A stretch of DNA of 64,000 bases from Paenibacillus ottowii. GTDB taxonomy: Bacteria > Bacillota > Bacilli > Paenibacillales > Paenibacillaceae. This document shows positions 2,636 to 25,924 of this stretch, in pieces. The notes beneath the pieces are model-generated. The model saw only the letters and a list, made by a program, of their open reading frames with translations, was not told the DNA's origin and did not search any database. Positions within the stretch are counted from its first letter, which is position 1, and each line of letters begins with the position of its first letter. A program made the position numbers and the translations under genes. The stretch covers positions 1 to 64,000 of the forward strand of contig NZ_VIJZ01000004.1 in the NCBI RefSeq assembly GCF_006874425.1, given 5' to 3'.

Positions 2636-3181
2636 ATGAAGAAAGCTATTTTATTAATGCTCATGTTTGTTGTTTTAATTCCATCACAAGTATTGGCAGC
2701 AACATCTACAAAAGCTATGTCAACTAGTGAAATCGAAAGAATATATTTTGAGAATTACAAAGATCGTGTAAAAGAAATTAAAGCTGCACAAAAAAAGCTT
2801 AATGCTGTTCTAGGGGCAGAAGTTCGTGAGCTAACTCAAAGATTAAACCAAGCCTCTGCAAGTTATAAAAATGAAGTGAAAAATAAGTCTAGTAAAGCAG
2901 TAATAGCTCAAGCCAAGGCTGATTGCGATAAATTAAAGAAACAGCTCAGCGTGGCGAAGGTGGAACTAAGTAAAAGTATTAAAAATTACAAACGAGAAAG
3001 TGACCAAATTTTAAAGGATATTGCAAAACAGAAAGCAGGTCTTATAAAATTTATTAAGAATCACACGGCAGGAAAAGATAAACTTACGGAATCTCAATTT
3101 AGCCAACAAGTTAATGGAGAAATTATGTCAATCGACAATTCATTTACTGAAGCTTTAAAAACAATTGCGGAAGCTGAATAA
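2636..3181 (+). CDS. secreted coiled-coil protein
   Basis: A 181-residue secreted protein. The ATG at 2636 is chosen because AAGGGG lies 6 bases upstream and the protein then opens with a classical signal peptide (MKKAILLMLMFVVLIP, AXA-like site at VLAA). The rest is Lys/Ala/Glu-rich and strongly helical with heptad character (about residues 35-150), so it probably forms an extended coiled coil. No cell-wall anchor or enzymatic motif is visible. A strong terminator follows, so it is monocistronic. Function unknown. A decayed Ala/Lys-rich tail at 17.7 kb may come from a similar type of protein. Confidence 0.7.
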   Translation: MKKAILLMLMFVVLIPSQVLAATSTKAMSTSEIERIYFENYKDRVKEIKAAQKKLNAVLGAEVRELTQRLNQASASYKNEVKNKSSKAVIAQAKADCDKLKKQLSVAKVELSKSIKNYKRESDQILKDIAKQKAGLIKFIKNHTAGKDKLTESQFSQQVNGEIMSIDNSFTEALKTIAEAE

Positions 3182-3190
3182 TAGGGTGTA

Positions 3191-3222
3191 AGGCAGCAGG
3201 ATTACCTGTTGCCTTTTTTATT
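3191..3222 (+). terminator. rho-independent terminator
   Basis: Stem AGGCAGCAGG / CCTGTTGCCT (3191-3200, 3205-3214, one wobble pair), four-base loop, then a T6 run. Confidence 0.8.
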
Positions 3223-4226: not shown

Positions 4227-5390
4227 ATGACAACTATTAAAGTGACACCTGAGCAACTTATGACTGTCTCCAAGCAGTTTGAGTTAGCACAGCAAACGAC
4301 AACTCAAATGAACAGCAATTTAGTACAACAAATTTCATCTATGGGACAATTGTGGGAAGGACTGACTAAAGAGCACTTTTACTATTCCTTCCAGGCCTCT
4401 CAGAAGAATATGAATGACTTTGTTACCCTGATGGATTCTATTGCTAGGGAGTTACTTCACCATGCAGATAAATTCAGATTAGCGGACCTGATGGAAGCAG
4501 GTAATATTGATGCAAGTTGTTTACCGCCTCCGCCGAATTCATGTGCTGTTCCTTCTCCAGATACACGAAATGCATTCCAGAAATCGGTAGATAGCTTAAC
4601 TGAACTAGGTCAGGATTTTGTAGATGCTAATTCAGTACGGTATGAGAAAAAATTTGATTCGGTTTGGAGCTTTTTAGATTATATGTCGTATGGTATTCCA
4701 AAAGGAATGTATCAAGGGTACATGGAACGAGCAGCTAAACAAAACGATTCGTGGAATGACATGCTCAATTTCGGTACATTTGGAATAACGGGCATGATTC
4801 AGGGAGCATTTAATCCTACCAATGCGTGGTCAAAGGAACACTGGGCTAATATGATCGGTACAGCAGGACTGTTTGGAGGAGTCAGCTCAGTTATTAAGCC
4901 TAAAATTGGTTTGACACCATCTATTCAGTATGAGATTCCGAAGAATAATACGAGTTCCAATTTACGGAATTCAATAGAATCTGAACCTAAAACAGAAGTA
5001 CAAACAGGTGGGAGAAACGATCTTTCAATTGATGAATATTTTCGTAGAGAAGCTGAAGCAGATGAGATGTATGATCAAATCAGAGCTTCAGATAGTGATG
5101 TAAGAGCAATAGCTGAAAATTCTGGAATGAAGGAAAGTAGGATTCAAAGAATCAAAGAACACGTTTTCATAAAAGAACACATAAAATCAAGTGGTTATGG
5201 CAGATTTCATTCTGATTACGAAATAGCTCAAGCATGGGATAGATTACAAAAAGGGATACAAACAGAAAAAGATATGGATTTGCTTAACCATGAATTGTTT
5301 GAATCTAGATTTGAGGGTATATTTAAAACAGACTATGAGACTGCTCATAACGCTGCGGTAAGGTCGGGTCGTCCATGGGAAATAGAATAG
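4227..5390 (+). CDS. WXG100-type polymorphic toxin (ESX/T7SS effector)
   Basis: A 387-residue protein. Residues 1-95 form a helical WXG100-like hairpin with the turn W43-E44-G45. A linker/pre-toxin region follows (about 105-250; PKGMYQGYMERA and a Gly-rich hydrophobic stretch at GTAGLFGG). The C-terminal module (about 265-387) is hydrophilic and contains HELFESRFEGIF and DYETAHNAAVRSG; this HE...E plus AH...A pattern recurs at the ends of Bacillus and Paenibacillus toxins, but I cannot assign an activity. WXG100/LXG effectors leave by the type VII secretion system; none of its components are in this window. The next gene, 13 bases downstream, has the place and size of an immunity gene. Confidence 0.65.
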   Translation: MTTIKVTPEQLMTVSKQFELAQQTTTQMNSNLVQQISSMGQLWEGLTKEHFYYSFQASQKNMNDFVTLMDSIARELLHHADKFRLADLMEAGNIDASCLPPPPNSCAVPSPDTRNAFQKSVDSLTELGQDFVDANSVRYEKKFDSVWSFLDYMSYGIPKGMYQGYMERAAKQNDSWNDMLNFGTFGITGMIQGAFNPTNAWSKEHWANMIGTAGLFGGVSSVIKPKIGLTPSIQYEIPKNNTSSNLRNSIESEPKTEVQTGGRNDLSIDEYFRREAEADEMYDQIRASDSDVRAIAENSGMKESRIQRIKEHVFIKEHIKSSGYGRFHSDYEIAQAWDRLQKGIQTEKDMDLLNHELFESRFEGIFKTDYETAHNAAVRSGRPWEIE

Positions 5391-20647: not shown

Positions 20648-21085
20648 TTATCGTATTCTCCGTATGTATAAGTCCCAGTTGATTTCTTTTTGATCAGGCA
20701 AGATAATATCTTTGATAAAACCTTCGCCGTCATAAATAACTTTTAAACCAGGCTGAGGATCAGGGTTATCAATATGATATACCGGCAGTGATTTGGTTGC
20801 TTCTTCGATCTCTTTATCCTGTTGTTTTTCTTTTTCTAGCTCAACCTGTTGTTCAGCAGTAAGTGGGGCAATAGCAGCTTTAGATTTTTGCTGTTCAGGT
20901 ACTGGAGTTCCTTTTTCCAATACAACCATGTTATTGTTCTCATCATATTGGATGATTGTACCCGCTAACATTTGGTCAGGGATTTTCCCCCCTTTCTCAG
21001 CATGAGAGATTGCCGGGCTGACGACTCCCAAAGAAATGAGTAACGTTGCAGCTAGAAAAGCTTGTGGTAGAAATTTTACTTTCAA
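20648..21085 (-). CDS. secreted protein of the PQPGLKV-YDGEG family, C-terminus altered
   Basis: 145 residues from a TTG at 21085 (AAGGAGG 7 bases ahead), with a good signal peptide (MKVKFLPQAFLAATLLISL, cleavage near SHA-E). A charged helical segment follows (EQQVELEKEKQQDKEIEEA), then VYHIDNPDPQPGLKVIYDGEGF. Compared with the copy at 19.2-19.7 kb, the last ~14 codons are out of phase. The other frame continues TGTYTYGEYDNK before stopping, so an indel in the A-tract near 20690 and a stop have removed the DPBB-like domain. Secreted; function unknown. Confidence 0.65.
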   Translation of the reverse strand: MKVKFLPQAFLAATLLISLGVVSPAISHAEKGGKIPDQMLAGTIIQYDENNNMVVLEKGTPVPEQQKSKAAIAPLTAEQQVELEKEKQQDKEIEEATKSLPVYHIDNPDPQPGLKVIYDGEGFIKDIILPDQKEINWDLYIRRIR

Positions 21086-21227
21086 ACAAACGCCTCCTTG
21101 AAATATTTGTAAATCCATGAATAGCATAAACAGGTCTATCAATATCGTCAACCTTTTTATGGAATATATGAATATATTCAATAGATTCGTAGGTGGGTAT
21201 AGGCTTAAAATGCAAAAAAGAAGGTTA

Positions 21228-21256
21228 TTGACAACTGTTAAATTATGAACAACAAT
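21228..21256 (+). promoter_or_regulatory. candidate aloR promoter
   Basis: TTGACA at 21228-21233 is a consensus -35. At 17 bases the -10 would be AACAAT (21251-21256), which is weak. A small dyad TGTT-N8-AACA (21236-21251) lies in the spacer and could be an autoregulatory site. No binding evidence. Confidence 0.4.
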
Positions 21257-21308
21257 AGAGTGCAATAATAAAAAGTTTTGGAATTTCTGTGTGGAAGGTG
21301 GATATGAC

Positions 21309-22724
21309 ATGAAGCATACACCTACGATTCGAGCAGAATTAGATAGTTACCTACAACAAAAGGGTTTAAGCCTAGCGCAATTCGGACAACTTGCAGGCAT
21401 GAATAGGGGAATAATAAGTGCTATTGTGTCAGGGAATAAGTCTATGTCAGTTAACCAACTTGACCGAATCACTGAGGCTATGGGTTTACCAGAAGGGGAG
21501 TTTTACGATCTGTTTATAGATAACTTCATCATCGACCATCCCCCGAATATGAGGCGAATCGAGCCGTTTTTGTTTCGCTGTGCGGAGTTAGACAGGTTGG
21601 ATGAGATCCGTCGAGTGGTGGGAGCCATCATGGACAATCTCCTGTATTCACCCAAGCTATTTGAAATTGCAGAAGGATTGTTGGAGCAGGGACGATTAGA
21701 AGCGGCATTGATACTCTATGAGGGAGTAGCTGAAACAGAGAGATATCAACACTCTGAACGTTTGGCAGTCTGCCAATATCGTATATTCACGATTCAGATT
21801 GGAGACGATCAAAGCCAGAATCTTAAGGCTGCCACACTATTTGAACCCTTCGTGGAACGTCTGGATGAGATAGACCAGCTTGATGCGTTAAAGGATTTAG
21901 CTAACGTGTACAGGTCTCTGCGTAAATGGGACAAGGTAGAGGAAATAGCAAAATTAATGAGGGCTAAAGCGGAAATTCAATATAATTTGAAACACGAACA
22001 TAAGAGTCGAAAACATACTGAATGTACTGATAAGCTAAACCGTCCATTGTTTGTATACATTTCCTATGCTGACTTGCTGTGTGCAGGTGTCTACGAAGCC
22101 CAAGGCGATTATCACCAAGCTCTACAATATACATACGCCTATGCTAATTTAGATTGGGTTAAAGAGACAGACGAAGATACCCAACACTGGATTGGCTTGT
22201 TTAAGCACTGGTCAAAAGCCAATATTATTGTGAATAAGCTTTTATCCGGAGATATAGAGGTGCTACAAGATTATATTGAATACATCGATGCAGTAGAGGA
22301 TACAAATCAAGAAGATAAGGTCATCCAACTGCTGAATATTATGATAGCGGCTAACCGATATAATATTGATGTTAGTAACATAATTAAACGCTTTGAAGCG
22401 GATATTGTATCATTATCGCAACATTCACCAAGTAATATGTATACTCAACAAGTGGTACCAGATTATTTTGCATGGTGTGGTTACGAGTTGGCTCATTATT
22501 ATTTACATCGAAATTCTTACGATGATGGTTTTAAACATTTGATGTATTCTATGGTAAGTTATCATACACTAAATAATGAGACTTATTTCATAAATTGTAT
22601 GGGGCTATTTTTACATTTTCGAGAACATGCTACTCCTGAAATCAAAGCAAATTTTTTAAATCTTATTGAAAAGGTGTGGATGAACAATGTTGAAAAAAAT
22701 GGCACTGTTGATCGTCGCGGCTAG
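21309..22724 (+). CDS. aloR: AimR-like/AloR peptide-sensing transcription regulator
   Basis: 471 residues. An XRE-type helix-turn-helix is at about 10-65 (LSLAQFGQLAGMNRGIISAIVSGNKSMSVNQLDRITEAMGL). The rest is all-helical with TPR-like repeats (EIAEGLLEQGRLEAALILYEGVAE; DALKDLANVYRSLRKWDKVEEIAKLM; ADLLCAGVYEAQGDYHQALQYTYAY). This is the architecture of RRNPP receptors, close to AimR and the AimR-like orphan (Alo) receptors described in P. polymyxa. ATG 21309 is preferred to GTG 21291 because AAGGTGG lies 7 bases ahead. A pro-peptide gene overlaps its 3' end, as expected of a receptor-peptide pair. Target genes are unknown. Confidence 0.82.
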   Translation: MKHTPTIRAELDSYLQQKGLSLAQFGQLAGMNRGIISAIVSGNKSMSVNQLDRITEAMGLPEGEFYDLFIDNFIIDHPPNMRRIEPFLFRCAELDRLDEIRRVVGAIMDNLLYSPKLFEIAEGLLEQGRLEAALILYEGVAETERYQHSERLAVCQYRIFTIQIGDDQSQNLKAATLFEPFVERLDEIDQLDALKDLANVYRSLRKWDKVEEIAKLMRAKAEIQYNLKHEHKSRKHTECTDKLNRPLFVYISYADLLCAGVYEAQGDYHQALQYTYAYANLDWVKETDEDTQHWIGLFKHWSKANIIVNKLLSGDIEVLQDYIEYIDAVEDTNQEDKVIQLLNIMIAANRYNIDVSNIIKRFEADIVSLSQHSPSNMYTQQVVPDYFAWCGYELAHYYLHRNSYDDGFKHLMYSMVSYHTLNNETYFINCMGLFLHFREHATPEIKANFLNLIEKVWMNNVEKNGTVDRRG

Positions 22725-22797
22725 TTTTTTGTTAATTGTTACTGTACCTATTCACTCGCATGGTATAGAGCCTCAAGTACAGCATGGAGGGGCTTAA
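22687..22797 (+). CDS. aloP: AloP-like signalling pro-peptide
   Basis: A 36-residue ORF overlapping the last 38 bases of aloR in another frame. It opens with two lysines and a hydrophobic core (MLKKMALLIVAASFLLIV), a Sec signal, and ends in a short polar tail. A signal peptidase site after S-H-G would release the ten residues IEPQVQHGGA. That cleavage is my prediction; the extracellular form could be trimmed further. An AAGG-type ribosome site lies 12 bases upstream, and translation is probably coupled to aloR. A terminator follows after 13 bases, so the receptor and peptide form a closed unit. Confidence 0.72.
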   Translation: MLKKMALLIVAASFLLIVTVPIHSHGIEPQVQHGGA

Positions 22798-22810
22798 ACG
22801 TAAGTAAAGC

Positions 22811-22846
22811 AAATCCCCGCTAACCTTAATTGGTCTGCGGGGATTT
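22811..22846 (+). terminator. terminator with the shared TAACCTTAATTGG loop (copy 1)
   Basis: Perfect stem AAATCCCCGC / GCGGGGATTT around a 16-base loop TAACCTTAATTGGTCT. The same loop recurs in four other terminators up to 29.4 kb. Confidence 0.85.
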
Positions 22847-22892
22847 ATACATTGAAGGGATCTCTACACAATCCATCGAATAGCTACTTGAG

Positions 22893-23093
22893 GTGATCAG
22901 CAAGAACTATACATATAAAGTGTTAAAGTCAGATATCAAACAATTTGCAGCTGCTTTAAGCCAGGTAAAGGTATACGTTGTTCAGTCGATGGGAGAAGAT
23001 TTGATATCGATTATAGACTATGGTGGCACTATAGAAAAGTTTTCGCCTTATTCGGTCAAGATTGCTGGAGCGTATTATATGCGGTTGAATTGA
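22893..23093 (+). CDS. small protein of unknown function
   Basis: 66 codons from GTG 22893. The GAGG that could serve as ribosome site touches the start codon, so the true start is uncertain. The peptide (TYKVLKSDIKQFAAAL, VYVVQSMGEDLISIIDYGG, KIAGAYYMRLN) has a mixed alpha/beta character and no signal. A terminator follows directly, which supports a real gene. No family recognised. It lies between aloP and a secreted-protein gene, but terminators separate it from both. Confidence 0.45.
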   Translation: MISKNYTYKVLKSDIKQFAAALSQVKVYVVQSMGEDLISIIDYGGTIEKFSPYSVKIAGAYYMRLN

Positions 23094-23104
23094 GGGTAGA
23101 TATG

Positions 23105-23139
23105 AAAGAACCTACCGGGTTGTAGTCGGTAGGCTCTTT
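23105..23139. terminator. rho-independent terminator
   Basis: AAAGAACCTACC / GGTAGGCTCTTT, 12 bp with one mismatch, 11-base loop. Confidence 0.75.
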
Positions 23140-23176
23140 AAGATAGACTATTTCAAAAAAATAGAAGGGGAAAAAT

Positions 23177-23596
23177 ATGAAGAAAAGAATTTTTCTATTC
23201 TCGGTTTTGTCTTTAAGCATGGCGATTACGGTAGGGGCTACTTCAGCTTCAACAAGTAAAACTAGCGAAAACATCATAATTAATCAAAGATCGAGCGGAG
23301 GCGCAACTGTAGGGGAATCCTTTGTTGTCCCTAAGGGATGGGGACATGTTAAACTTCGTATGAAGAATCACTCTGATCATCCAGTAAAGGTCAGTTTAAC
23401 GCACGACAGATCAAACAAGCTATATATTGATGCATTAGTAATCGCTCCTCACGACACAGTTATCTGGAAAAGCACTGATAAAGGCTTCTCAGACGGTATG
23501 CGTTCTGGAGACTACACACTTCAGTGGAGAGGCAGTGATTATAAAGTTAACGGGGAAACGTGGGGAGTAGCTGACTCACAGCCTGGAGACATCTAA
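23177..23596 (+). CDS. secreted protein, small beta domain
   Basis: 139 residues with a clear signal peptide (MKKRIFLFSVLSLSMAITVGA, cleavage near ATS). The mature part is beta-rich (VGESFVVPKGWGHVKLRMKNHS, VKVSLTHDRS, YTLQWRGS) and has the feel of a small extracellular beta-sandwich, like the minus-strand protein at 24701-25144 (GDYTLQ/NSYKLYI ends, sugar- or cell-surface-facing). AGAAGGGG ribosome site at good distance. The stop TAA is followed after one codon by the GTG of the next gene in the same reading frame. Confidence 0.65.
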   Translation: MKKRIFLFSVLSLSMAITVGATSASTSKTSENIIINQRSSGGATVGESFVVPKGWGHVKLRMKNHSDHPVKVSLTHDRSNKLYIDALVIAPHDTVIWKSTDKGFSDGMRSGDYTLQWRGSDYKVNGETWGVADSQPGDI

Positions 23597-23599
23597 CTT

Positions 23600-24532
23600 G
23601 TGTATGACGATCGATCACCAGAATTAATTTATGGGAATGACATGGTTAAAATAGCGGATGCAGAAGACTGCCACAAGACAGTGTTAGGAGCTGCTCATAA
23701 TAAGCCAAGTACTATTAATTTTAAATTCGATGGAACAAAAATTAGACTGATTATCAATATGTCAGATTCATATACTAAAAAAGTAGGGATTAGCATAGAT
23801 GGTAATGTAGAATACTTTACTGCGTATAGAGAGTCTTGGTCGCATCAACGCTTAGCTTATGAGAAAACAGATCTAAAAAAAGGTGTACACATCGTTAAAA
23901 TTTGGACTGAGACTCCGTCAGAAAACTATGTAGTTTACGATTACCGATTTGATGCTATAGATATAGATTCTGATGGAACGCTCATTGATTACAATGCTTC
24001 ACAAATTAATCTAAATGCTGAGGCAGGGAATAGTCAGGTTACACTGAAGTGGAATCAGGTTAAAGACTCAGAAAGCTATACTATAAAATACGGAACAGAA
24101 TCAGGTAAATACACTGAAACGGTAACTGCTACTAAAGATGCATATGGAAACTTTGTTATTCCCGGTCTGACCAACGGAACAAAATACTACTTTGTTGTAA
24201 GTGCTAAAGTGAACGGTGCCGATTCTGAATATTCCAATGAAACATCTGCAATTCCACAAGGGGGAGACAGTCAAACTGACCCTGAGCAGCCAACGGGTAA
24301 TCGTGCTATTCTGGTAGTCACTATGACAACTGGCTTAGAGAAGGAATTCGACCTAAGCATGAAAGAGGTCAATGACTTTATTGCATGGTACAACAGCAAA
24401 CAGGCTGGTTCTGGATCGGCTTCATACGCCGTTAATAAACATGATAACAATAAAGGGCCGTTCAGCAGCCGAAAGGATTATATGCTGTATGATCGTATTC
24501 TAACGTTTGAAGTAAGTGAATACTCTAAATAA
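23600..24532 (+). CDS. fibronectin type III-containing protein
   Basis: 310 residues. Residues 1-130 are a beta-sandwich resembling carbohydrate-binding modules (GTKIRLIINMSDSYTKKVGISIDG, KGVHIVKIWTET, FDAIDIDSDG). About 138-220 is a fibronectin type III domain (LNAEAGNSQVTLKWNQV, YTIKYGT, GLTNGTKYYFVVSA). A short linker and a C-terminal domain follow (TGLEKEFDLSMKEVNDFIAWYNS). It has no signal peptide and a weak ribosome site. It sits in the same frame as the secreted ORF just upstream, so it probably was, or by readthrough is, the C-terminal part of one secreted protein. Confidence 0.7.
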   Translation: MYDDRSPELIYGNDMVKIADAEDCHKTVLGAAHNKPSTINFKFDGTKIRLIINMSDSYTKKVGISIDGNVEYFTAYRESWSHQRLAYEKTDLKKGVHIVKIWTETPSENYVVYDYRFDAIDIDSDGTLIDYNASQINLNAEAGNSQVTLKWNQVKDSESYTIKYGTESGKYTETVTATKDAYGNFVIPGLTNGTKYYFVVSAKVNGADSEYSNETSAIPQGGDSQTDPEQPTGNRAILVVTMTTGLEKEFDLSMKEVNDFIAWYNSKQAGSGSASYAVNKHDNNKGPFSSRKDYMLYDRILTFEVSEYSK

Positions 24533-25338: not shown

Positions 25339-25924
25339 TTAGACTCTAAACTCTGTAAAAACTGGACTTCGTAATAACCCCGCCTTAGTCCAGTTACGCA
25401 TCTTTACGCGAGCCCTTATACGTGGTTCCACATAAACATACTCGCGATCCTCCCCAGTTATCAATGATTTAGACACTCCATAAAACGCCTTCTTATGTGT
25501 CGGCGTTGCACCCAGCTCAATGATACCAGGCGGACGAATTTTACTACTCTCATTCGGTACGCCTGCAAGCCACACGAATTCCTTTTTACGATAACTTGTT
25601 ATAAATACGTCAGCATAGGACCAGTTAATGACCTTTAATTCAGCTACAGGCTTAAAATTTTGTCCGCCTTCTTCGCCTGAAAGCGTGACATAACGGATTC
25701 AAAATCCGATCCACCCGTTGTCGGATCAACGCACGCAATCTCACCGTTCAACACGATGTCATACGGGAATGTAGCGCTACTATCTCCGGGTATTAGCCTG
25801 TGCAGTCGTTATTATGGCGCGTGAATAAGCGTACAATTCCGTTCTGTTGCGAATATATTAAGCGGTGACCGTCTATTTTCGGTTCGAAGATATAGCGCGA
25901 ATCCGAAAAGGGGCAGTCGCTGTT
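25339..25924 (-). pseudogene. ATP-dependent DNA ligase, deleted and frameshifted
   Basis: The minus strand reads in pieces as one ligase. 25924 to about 25800: SRYIFEPKIDGHRLIYS with the adenylation motif KIDG, then RLFTRHNNDC and a stop. After frame changes: YDIVLNGEIACVDPTTGG, SDFESVMSRFQ, KADKI. Then directly LKVINWSYADVFITSYRKKEFVWLAG and the OB-fold end (RIRARVKMRNWTKAGLLRSPVFTEF) to 25339. About 90-100 codons between KADKI and KVINW, which should carry the later nucleotidyl-transfer motifs, are missing. It is a dead LigB/LigD-like ligase. The 78-codon ORF at its 3' end is not an independent gene. Confidence 0.85.

Follow-up and report, generated by a model that had tools for sequence, protein, structure and literature searches.

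An apparent peptide–receptor recognition code in an AloR–AloP pair of Paenibacillus ottowii and its relatives

The first 64,000 nucleotides of contig NZ_VIJZ01000004.1 of Paenibacillus ottowii (assembly GCF_006874425.1; positions 1 to 64,000 of the forward strand), hereafter the window, carry a gene pair of the AloR–AloP kind: a receptor gene of the aloR type (21309..22724, plus strand) and, overlapping its 3' end, a short gene of the aloP type for a signal-bearing propeptide (22687..22797, plus strand). The system itself is of a known kind. What seems to be new, judged from comparison of sequences, is an apparent recognition code that links single residues of the receptor to single residues of the peptide. 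On balance we favour the reading that Alo receptors of the window's clade read a C-terminal hexapeptide through four separable sites (residues 304, 309, 385–389 and 243–249), that this code has switched repeatedly, and that it predicts from DNA which signals reach which receptors. The window pair and its paralogue L002 (C41) would then share one signal and be insulated from other pairs; a monophyletic group of receptors that have lost their peptide, with a replaced C-terminus ending in FYY, would be listeners; and a second propeptide lying in tandem in P. farraposensis would carry a foreign signal, unreadable by the receptor it accompanies. Contact, binding, secretion and processing are predictions throughout.

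Quorum-sensing systems of the Rap/NprR/PlcR/Rgg/ComR type (RRNPPA) use an intracellular receptor built of tetratricopeptide repeats (TPRs) and a peptide that is secreted and re-imported. The window pair would follow the same scheme, with a TPR receptor and a predicted re-imported peptide, but the receptor matches none of these families by Pfam, NCBIfam or PDB profile. Alo, which the first-pass annotation of this DNA had expanded as 'AimR-like orphan', in fact stands for 'Autoinducer peptide Locus', described in P. polymyxa (Voichek 2020, PMC7425212). The same paper gives SHGRGG as the mature AloP13 peptide and puts the number of Alo pairs in some Paenibacillus above 25. The apparent code bears on how a single cell could keep this many similar channels apart. 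Its repeated paired changes yield single-residue predictions of who hears whom, and point to the mature signal without mass spectrometry. We found no mention in the main text of PMC7425212 of paired change in individual AloR and AloP residues, and a literature search found no title or abstract naming one, most subscription journals lying outside its coverage.

Co-variation of peptide and receptor

Co-variation was computed only for receptors that were intact, reached 420 aa and came with a qualifying short open reading frame (ORF). The first set comprised the 41 distinct receptors of this kind that share at least 57% identity with that of the window and are accompanied by a propeptide; in it the best-predicting receptor column was taken for each peptide position, counted back from the C-terminus. 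Residue 309 predicts position −5 in every pair: the peptide has Q where the receptor has N (23 pairs), T where it has Y (17) and V where it has F (one). For −4 the column is residue 304, with H or Q in the peptide opposite A (17), I opposite G (18) and V opposite C, V or S (6). For −6 it is residue 389, with V opposite W or Y (23), D or E opposite R (14) and A opposite L (4), and for −1 residue 249, with A or S opposite V (32) and F or M opposite G (9). The window pair, with V249, A304, N309 and W389 in the receptor and the tail VQHGGA in the propeptide, agrees with these rules at all four positions.

The co-varying residues are encoded in short stretches of the plus strand. Residues 243–249 (22035..22055) vary with −1, being mostly L, R, V where the peptide ends in A or S and T, G, G where it ends in F. 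In residues 304–309 (22218..22235), 304 goes with −4 and 309 with −5, and a second segment, residues 336–346 (22314..22346), adds 340, 336 and 344 for −4 and 339 and 346 for −6. Residues 385–389 (22461..22475; D Y F A W in the window) vary with −6 in the combinations W/V, R/D or E, and L/A. Beside or near these residues stand two invariant asparagines, N305 and N349; in RRNPP receptors a conserved asparagine contacts the peptide backbone, according to PMC6458997.

Changes were also placed on a tree of 63 pairs (124 branches) built without the tested columns. There were 10 changes at −5 and nine at residue 309, and nine of them shared a branch (Jaccard 0.90, against 0.27 for the column ranked next). 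Position −4 and residue 304 changed 15 times each, 14 times together (Jaccard 0.88; next 0.37), and eight of the 11 changes at −1 coincide with a change of residue 245 or 243 (nine changes; Jaccard 0.67, next 0.42). Inspected by eye, a receptor tree also shows the peptide types in line with the receptor clades. Several results weigh against so tidy a code. For −6 only six of 11 changes fall with residue 385, at a Jaccard index of only 0.43; residues 385 and 386 lead there, and 389, the best partner of −6 by mutual information, is outside the six best tree columns. The raw shared changes of other columns also reach five for −5 and eight for −1.

Association could in principle arise from linkage or recombination, receptor segments and peptides being inherited together without any contact between their products. 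Pieces comprising the receptor 3' end and a propeptide do move as units, as at L025, L030, L028/L059, L073 and L106. Linkage nevertheless accounts poorly for the pattern: association peaks in the TPR region, near residues 243–249, 304–309, 336–346 and 385–389, and for the tested peptide positions it is low (0.18–0.38) at residues 421–471, beside the peptide gene. The letter pairs are also chemically sensible, R going with D or E and glycines with bulky F. We consider linkage a very unlikely source of the pattern, and return to recognition of the peptide by the receptor as the preferred explanation.

Strong co-variation is confined to positions −6 to −1. The linker positions −16 to −11 have no comparable receptor partner (best Jaccard 0.28–0.41), nor do −16 to −11 and −9 to −7 taken together (0.26–0.41). 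Positions −7 and −8 were considered as receptor-read positions and rejected, finding support neither in the held-out prediction described below nor in the tree tests. Position −10 has a weak partner in residue 310 (three of five changes, Jaccard 0.50, association 0.72), and an I-x-P upstream of the hexapeptide is often conserved as well. Within the signal part of the propeptide, position 10 follows residue 469 (Jaccard 0.56), as expected because the two reading frames overlap there, and positions 4 and 14 follow residue 266 on three changes each, too few for use.

Since the strong co-variation ends at −6, the mature signal is likely the hexapeptide VQHGGA (codons 31–36, 22777..22794, plus strand), a length also suggested by the six residues of the AloP13 peptide SHGRGG. 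The longer mature region proposed at first, IEPQVQHGGA, is thus retained in its C-terminal part and shortened at its front. At L010 and L053 the propeptide has a doubled tail unit (GHGNG and SHGDGY), in keeping with a signal some six residues long.

The arbitrium system of Bacillus phages, AimR–AimP, offers a comparison at the level of the peptide: a hexapeptide with a conserved C-terminal GA and a TPR receptor with a helix–turn–helix (HTH) domain (PMC6458997). As described there, the AimP peptide is anchored by its conserved C-terminal half and owes its specificity to the N-terminal one; in the window's clade, by contrast, −1 and −4 also vary with the receptor.

Prediction in further genomes

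The letter rules were fixed in writing before the stretches of seven further genomes were fetched; seven loci of these genomes, L223–L229, had been obtained earlier and were still unread. G080 and G082 seem to be strains already represented, and receptors identical to those of the training set were removed. Of 75 held-out loci, five were dropped as duplicates, six as already in training and two as broken, leaving 62 new distinct intact receptors. Twenty-six of these, all from the seven genomes, are at least 57% identical to the window receptor, and 23 of the 26 have a qualifying ORF. Where a rule applied, residue 304 was right in 23 of 23 pairs, residue 309 in 21 of 22 (one without a rule), residue 249 in 21 of 22 (one without a rule) and residue 389 in 18 of 20 (three without a rule). 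L268, judged afterwards, probably has no true propeptide; it is kept in these counts, where it adds one right call for 304 and one pair without a rule for each of the other three, and is left out of the tree and association analyses.

Without L268, a look-up on residue 304 predicts −4 in 21 of 22 pairs, against 15 for the nearest relative, 10 for the commonest letter and 18 for the next column. The corresponding look-up on residue 309 predicts −5 in 21 of 22, against 18, 16 and 18. The other two positions temper this result: the gain over the nearest relative is small for −6 (17 versus 16 of 22) and for −1 (19 versus 17 of 22). Below 57% identity, moreover, the counts of right, wrong and without a rule are 4/22/0 for residue 309, 5/10/11 for 389, 6/6/14 for 304 and 7/8/11 for 249. 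Extension of the code to such receptors was rejected on this failure of the rules, from which it follows that the code holds for the window's clade only and that other Alo clades use other letters.

The propeptide in relatives

The propeptide of 36 aa, MLKKMALLIVAASFLLIVTVPIHSHGIEPQVQHGGA, begins at ATG 22687, ends with TAA 22795–22797 and has a Sec-like N-terminal signal, judged here by composition. The own and related genomes yielded 104 distinct loci with a receptor 3' end, 94 of them with a receptor frame of at least 420 aa. A signal-bearing ORF stands at the receptor 3' end in 73 of these 94, compared with 343 of 6640 random control anchors in the same DNA (5.2%); the remaining 21 of the 94 receptors had no qualifying ORF in the same scan, which counts against the generality of the pairing. 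The start of the ORF lies at exactly −37 in 48 of the 73 pairs and in 38 of the 41 pairs of the window's clade. The tails are alike in having G at −3 (62 of 73) and G at −2 (53 of 73).

The closest comparison is with paralogue L002, whose receptor is 84% identical and whose propeptide differs solely at residue 8. The two propeptide genes differ by five synonymous codons and one non-synonymous codon, and the two receptor genes by 84 and 77, respectively. Over the 21 pairs formed by the seven 36-codon sequences of the closest group, pN/pS of the propeptide is 0.32, and 0.41 outside the overlap with the receptor. By these ratios the propeptide frame is under purifying selection.

These results bear on a second alternative, that the receptor is a TPR-containing XRE regulator that binds no peptide, and that the short ORF is a chance frame or a small membrane peptide with a role of its own. 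The Pfam TPR matches in the single protein are indeed weak, and the short ORF weakly matches Ycf9/PsbZ, which reflects its hydrophobic segment. A frame of that kind would be hard to reconcile with its occurrence at 73 of 94 receptor ends when a mere 5.2% of control anchors have such an ORF, with the purifying selection on it, or with its co-variation with single receptor residues, which largely contradicts the proposal; we give it almost no credence. The short ORF, which the earlier reading expected at homologous loci if the pair was genuine, is thus a regular companion of the receptor.

The propeptide was also expected to be too short for most gene finders. This was partly so: in the PLSDB gene tables, which are incomplete, it is unlisted on two P. 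polymyxa plasmids that carry such a pair, but on a plasmid of P. polymyxa ATCC 842 with another pair the propeptide gene is listed. The window thereby gains a function that automatic annotation can miss.

Receptor domains and family membership

Homology, layout and co-variation together place the window pair in the Alo family. The receptor has 471 aa (ATG 21309, TAG 22722–22724; an in-frame GTG at 21291 is a possible alternative start), with an N-terminal HTH at residues 14–65 and degenerate TPRs in its C-terminal part. The HTH_3 match barely passes, at 23.4 bits against the Pfam cut-off of 23, and the TPR match falls below the cut-off when this protein is taken alone; among 79 aligned relatives, HTH_3 was matched in 57 and TPR_7 in 35 (E ≤ 0.01). 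The HTH-plus-TPR architecture assigned at first sight is upheld by this comparison. There are 981 receptor homologues, the closest in the Paenibacillus polymyxa group, and among the best 120 of the 981 those with a named host are nearly all from Paenibacillus. The P. ottowii genome itself (5.51 Mb) contains 21 receptor matches, full-length and partial, in keeping with the several paralogues per genome of Alo systems in Paenibacillaceae.

The Alo loci of P. polymyxa ATCC 842, as described in PMC7425212, resemble the window pair in their HTH-TPR receptor, in a signal-bearing ORF of 32–50 aa that overlaps or closely follows the receptor 3' end, and in the number of paralogues. The window pair differs from them in having ORF76, and not a Spo0E-like gene, downstream, and in its predicted peptide VQHGGA; none of the numbers Alo1–22 was assigned to it. 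Homology to AloR13 was judged through the receptors adjoining SHGRGG loci. A DNA pattern for SHGRGG was found at six places in four of five genomes, none of them in the P. ottowii genome, against three places for a reversed control pattern. Two hits were looked at, L172 and L173 (P. polymyxa M1, here G014, and G004). The propeptide of G014 ends NITIGNGSQITVSSHGRGG, matching the AloP13 pro-peptide given in the methods of PMC7425212. The receptors beside these propeptides are 34.5% and 34.8% identical to the window receptor over 443 residues (tblastn, E 4e-78 and 2e-77). Alo13 thus shares family and layout with the window pair, and differs in its distant receptor, its peptide and the Spo0E-like motif found downstream of both examined SHGRGG loci.

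The receptor was searched against AimR, Rgg, PlcR and NprR as well as AloR, and the outcome was homology to the receptors beside AloP13, with no AimR, Rgg, PlcR, NprR, Rap or ComR family match in Pfam, NCBIfam or the PDB profiles. Through that homology, and so only indirectly, the result also speaks against the refuting case named at first, a receptor that clusters with XRE regulators binding no peptide. A relationship to AimR by sequence was rejected on the same matches, none of which is to a family named for AimR. A structure-based phylogeny of 2025 places AloR and AimR in one clan (PMC12700828), so that 'AimR-like' is fair as a description of the fold.

Some observations concern phages. Residues 16–166 of the receptor (21354–21806 of the window) match phrog_32768, a phage family of 446 positions with no assigned function (E 3e-7), and phage AloR-like proteins may lie behind this PHROG without a name. 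The remaining PHROG matches are transcription regulators and families of unassigned function. Brevibacillus phage Emery (KC595516.1, 2420–3903; L222) encodes an AloR-like protein, gp60 (23% identity, E 6e-11), followed by an annotated signal-bearing ORF of 43 aa whose tail contains HGGIGW twice, a possible phage-borne Alo-like pair; a gene of the AgrB family is nearby. In Brevibacillus phage SecTim467 (KT151957.1, 2161–3892; L218) an AloR-like gene (26%, E 5e-43) lies directly 3' of a gene annotated as Spo0E, and a 45-aa ORF without a signal-like start overlaps its end.

Distribution of the signal and listening receptors

It had been suggested that the pair might be specific to this strain. 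This was rejected: PQVQHGG is encoded at 10 places in six of 75 genomes of the genus, and a pair of this type is present on two large P. polymyxa plasmids. Two of the 10 places are in the P. ottowii genome. Six of the other eight were examined, and five of these have a receptor of 86–88% identity directly 5' of the propeptide; the remaining two, both in G014, are L034 and L058. The second place in the own genome is that of L002, which equals the window at all 13 tabulated receptor positions and in the last 28 propeptide residues. With the same receptor letters and the same tail, L002 is predicted to respond to the window's peptide too. Next to L002 there is also an orphan propeptide in decay.

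The sixth place examined, L179 (= L030, P. farraposensis), is a second propeptide behind a receptor of 71–72% identity that carries R389 and has a peptide of its own, YDQHGGA. Here (L030, 4382–4643) the second propeptide is an intact ORF encoding the window's IEPQVQHGGA. Second or partial propeptides also occur in L025, L028/L059, L073 and L106, as in L030 behind a duplicated receptor 3' end with its ribosome-binding stretch; at L028 (4376–4689) and L025 the first ATG of the second copy is in another frame than the rest of that copy.

Every one of the clade's 53 intact receptors either comes with a propeptide (41) or ends in FYY (12), and the 26 held-out receptors divide likewise (23 and three). 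Nine of the FYY receptors, L004 and L005 of the own genome and L031, L060, L079, L080, L082, L083 and L084, form one branch (support 100/100), in which the C-terminus has been replaced by one ending LFYY and remnants of the old propeptide persist downstream in some. Among 16 FYY receptors a remnant tail is readable in five. This tail fits the letters kept by the receptor in L079, L142 and L216 (one position of L216 lacking a rule), has one mismatch in L137 and does not fit in L132. For other RRNPPA families it has been proposed that receptors without a peptide eavesdrop (PMC9765709).

Promoter, overlap and hairpin

The arrangement noted at first sight, a receptor, a 36-codon ORF that shares the receptor gene's last 38 bases (22687–22724) in another frame, and a hairpin 13 bases later, holds at every coordinate. 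The predicted ribosome-binding stretch of aloP, AAAGGTGTGG (22670..22679, plus strand), lies within the receptor 3' end and belongs to the piece duplicated in the relatives with tandem propeptides. Upstream, the operon promoter (21228..21256, plus strand) has the form TTGACA, 17 bases, AACAAT, and was located by a promoter scan and a clade profile.

The promoter of aloR and aloP is common to many relatives. TTGACA lies 76–82 bases 5' of the start in 26 clade receptors, and a 36-base profile from these 26 promoters, the window promoter itself being one of them, scores 39.8 at the window promoter, against 4.8 at the second-best site of the window and no more than 9.4 in any of ten shuffles. Other members of the clade (e.g. 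L064, L066, L030 and L076) have no TTGACA there and a different upstream type. Used as an operator search of the window, the profile picked out only the pair's own promoter and no second target; the motif may be no more than the promoter.

The hairpin (22811..22846, plus strand), a candidate terminator or attenuator and earlier read as a terminator, has a folding energy of −22.8 kcal/mol (z −3.5). Its T run is short and interrupted, however, and a consensus terminator scan of 20900–23700 called none, the hairpin included; a canonical terminator after aloP was rejected on that scan, and the weakness of the T run counts against this part of the proposed operon. Longer T runs follow the hairpin in several relatives. 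By eye, the hairpins after aloP in several relatives keep a loop near CTAACCTTAA(C/T)TGGTC while their stems vary, and in L024 and L031 apparent transposon DNA is inserted into the hairpin.

Proposed mechanism

We hold it very probable that the locus is an Alo quorum-sensing module that works as follows. The aloR and aloP genes would be co-transcribed from the common promoter, with translation of AloP beginning inside the 3' end of aloR. AloP would be exported by Sec and cut to leave its C-terminal hexapeptide, most likely VQHGGA. The hexapeptide would be re-imported by an oligopeptide permease and bind the TPR region of AloR; the genome has eight matches to PF00496, the binding proteins of the Opp type. 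There residue 304 (with 336/340) would read −4, residue 309 −5, residues 385–389 −6 and residues 243–249 −1. Binding would alter the action of AloR at DNA. By analogy with Alo13, for which a loss of activation on addition of peptide was measured (PMC7425212), free AloR may activate its target and the peptide switch it off. With the downstream gene ORF76 decayed, the operon itself or other promoters would be the targets left.

Downstream gene and surroundings

Within 700 bases downstream of 92 propeptides, a Spo0E-like motif was found at 22 loci and a homologue or fragment of the 76-aa ORF76 at 11, with no locus having both. ORF76 has 145 homologues (E ≤ 0.001), the best 120 of which are hypothetical or unnamed, with named hosts nearly all Paenibacillus; it has no Pfam or NCBIfam match. 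ORF76 was probably the ancestral local target. In the window it is a remnant (22893..23093, plus strand): its ATG has become AAG and its C-terminus is out of frame relative to its relatives, so the local target is probably gone.

The broken ORF76 weighs against a working module, as does the copy in P. polymyxa M1, which has similar upstream sequence and stops in the receptor. Together with the decayed orphan propeptide adjoining the paralogue, they lend some substance to the idea that the window pair is a relic in decay, one whose genes happen to be intact but in which signalling has been lost. Both of its ORFs are intact, however, its promoter is that of its relatives, its propeptide differs from the paralogue's by five synonymous changes to one non-synonymous, and its receptor letters match its peptide at all four positions. 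A relic is accordingly a minor though real chance, and a functioning Alo pair remains the preferred reading. The decayed island in which the pair was first placed is borne out by ORF76 and not by the pair.

Beyond ORF76 lies a gene for a 139-aa protein with a signal-like N-terminus (23177..23596, plus strand), which follows alo in the same order at the P. terrae locus L023. At L002 the alo cassette is flanked by similar stretches (about 1275–1370 and 3120–3213), read by eye as direct repeats with a hairpin, and the downstream repeat starts where the similarity to ORF76 ends. About 16 kb 5' of alo, the window encodes a polymorphic-toxin-like protein of the WXG100 type (4227–5390; TIGR03930 above cut-off), and the start of a near-identical gene is found within 700 bases past the alo locus at L030. 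A C-terminal fragment of an ATP-dependent DNA ligase (25339–25575, minus strand; E 8e-6, just under the cut-off) is a further sign of decay in the island.

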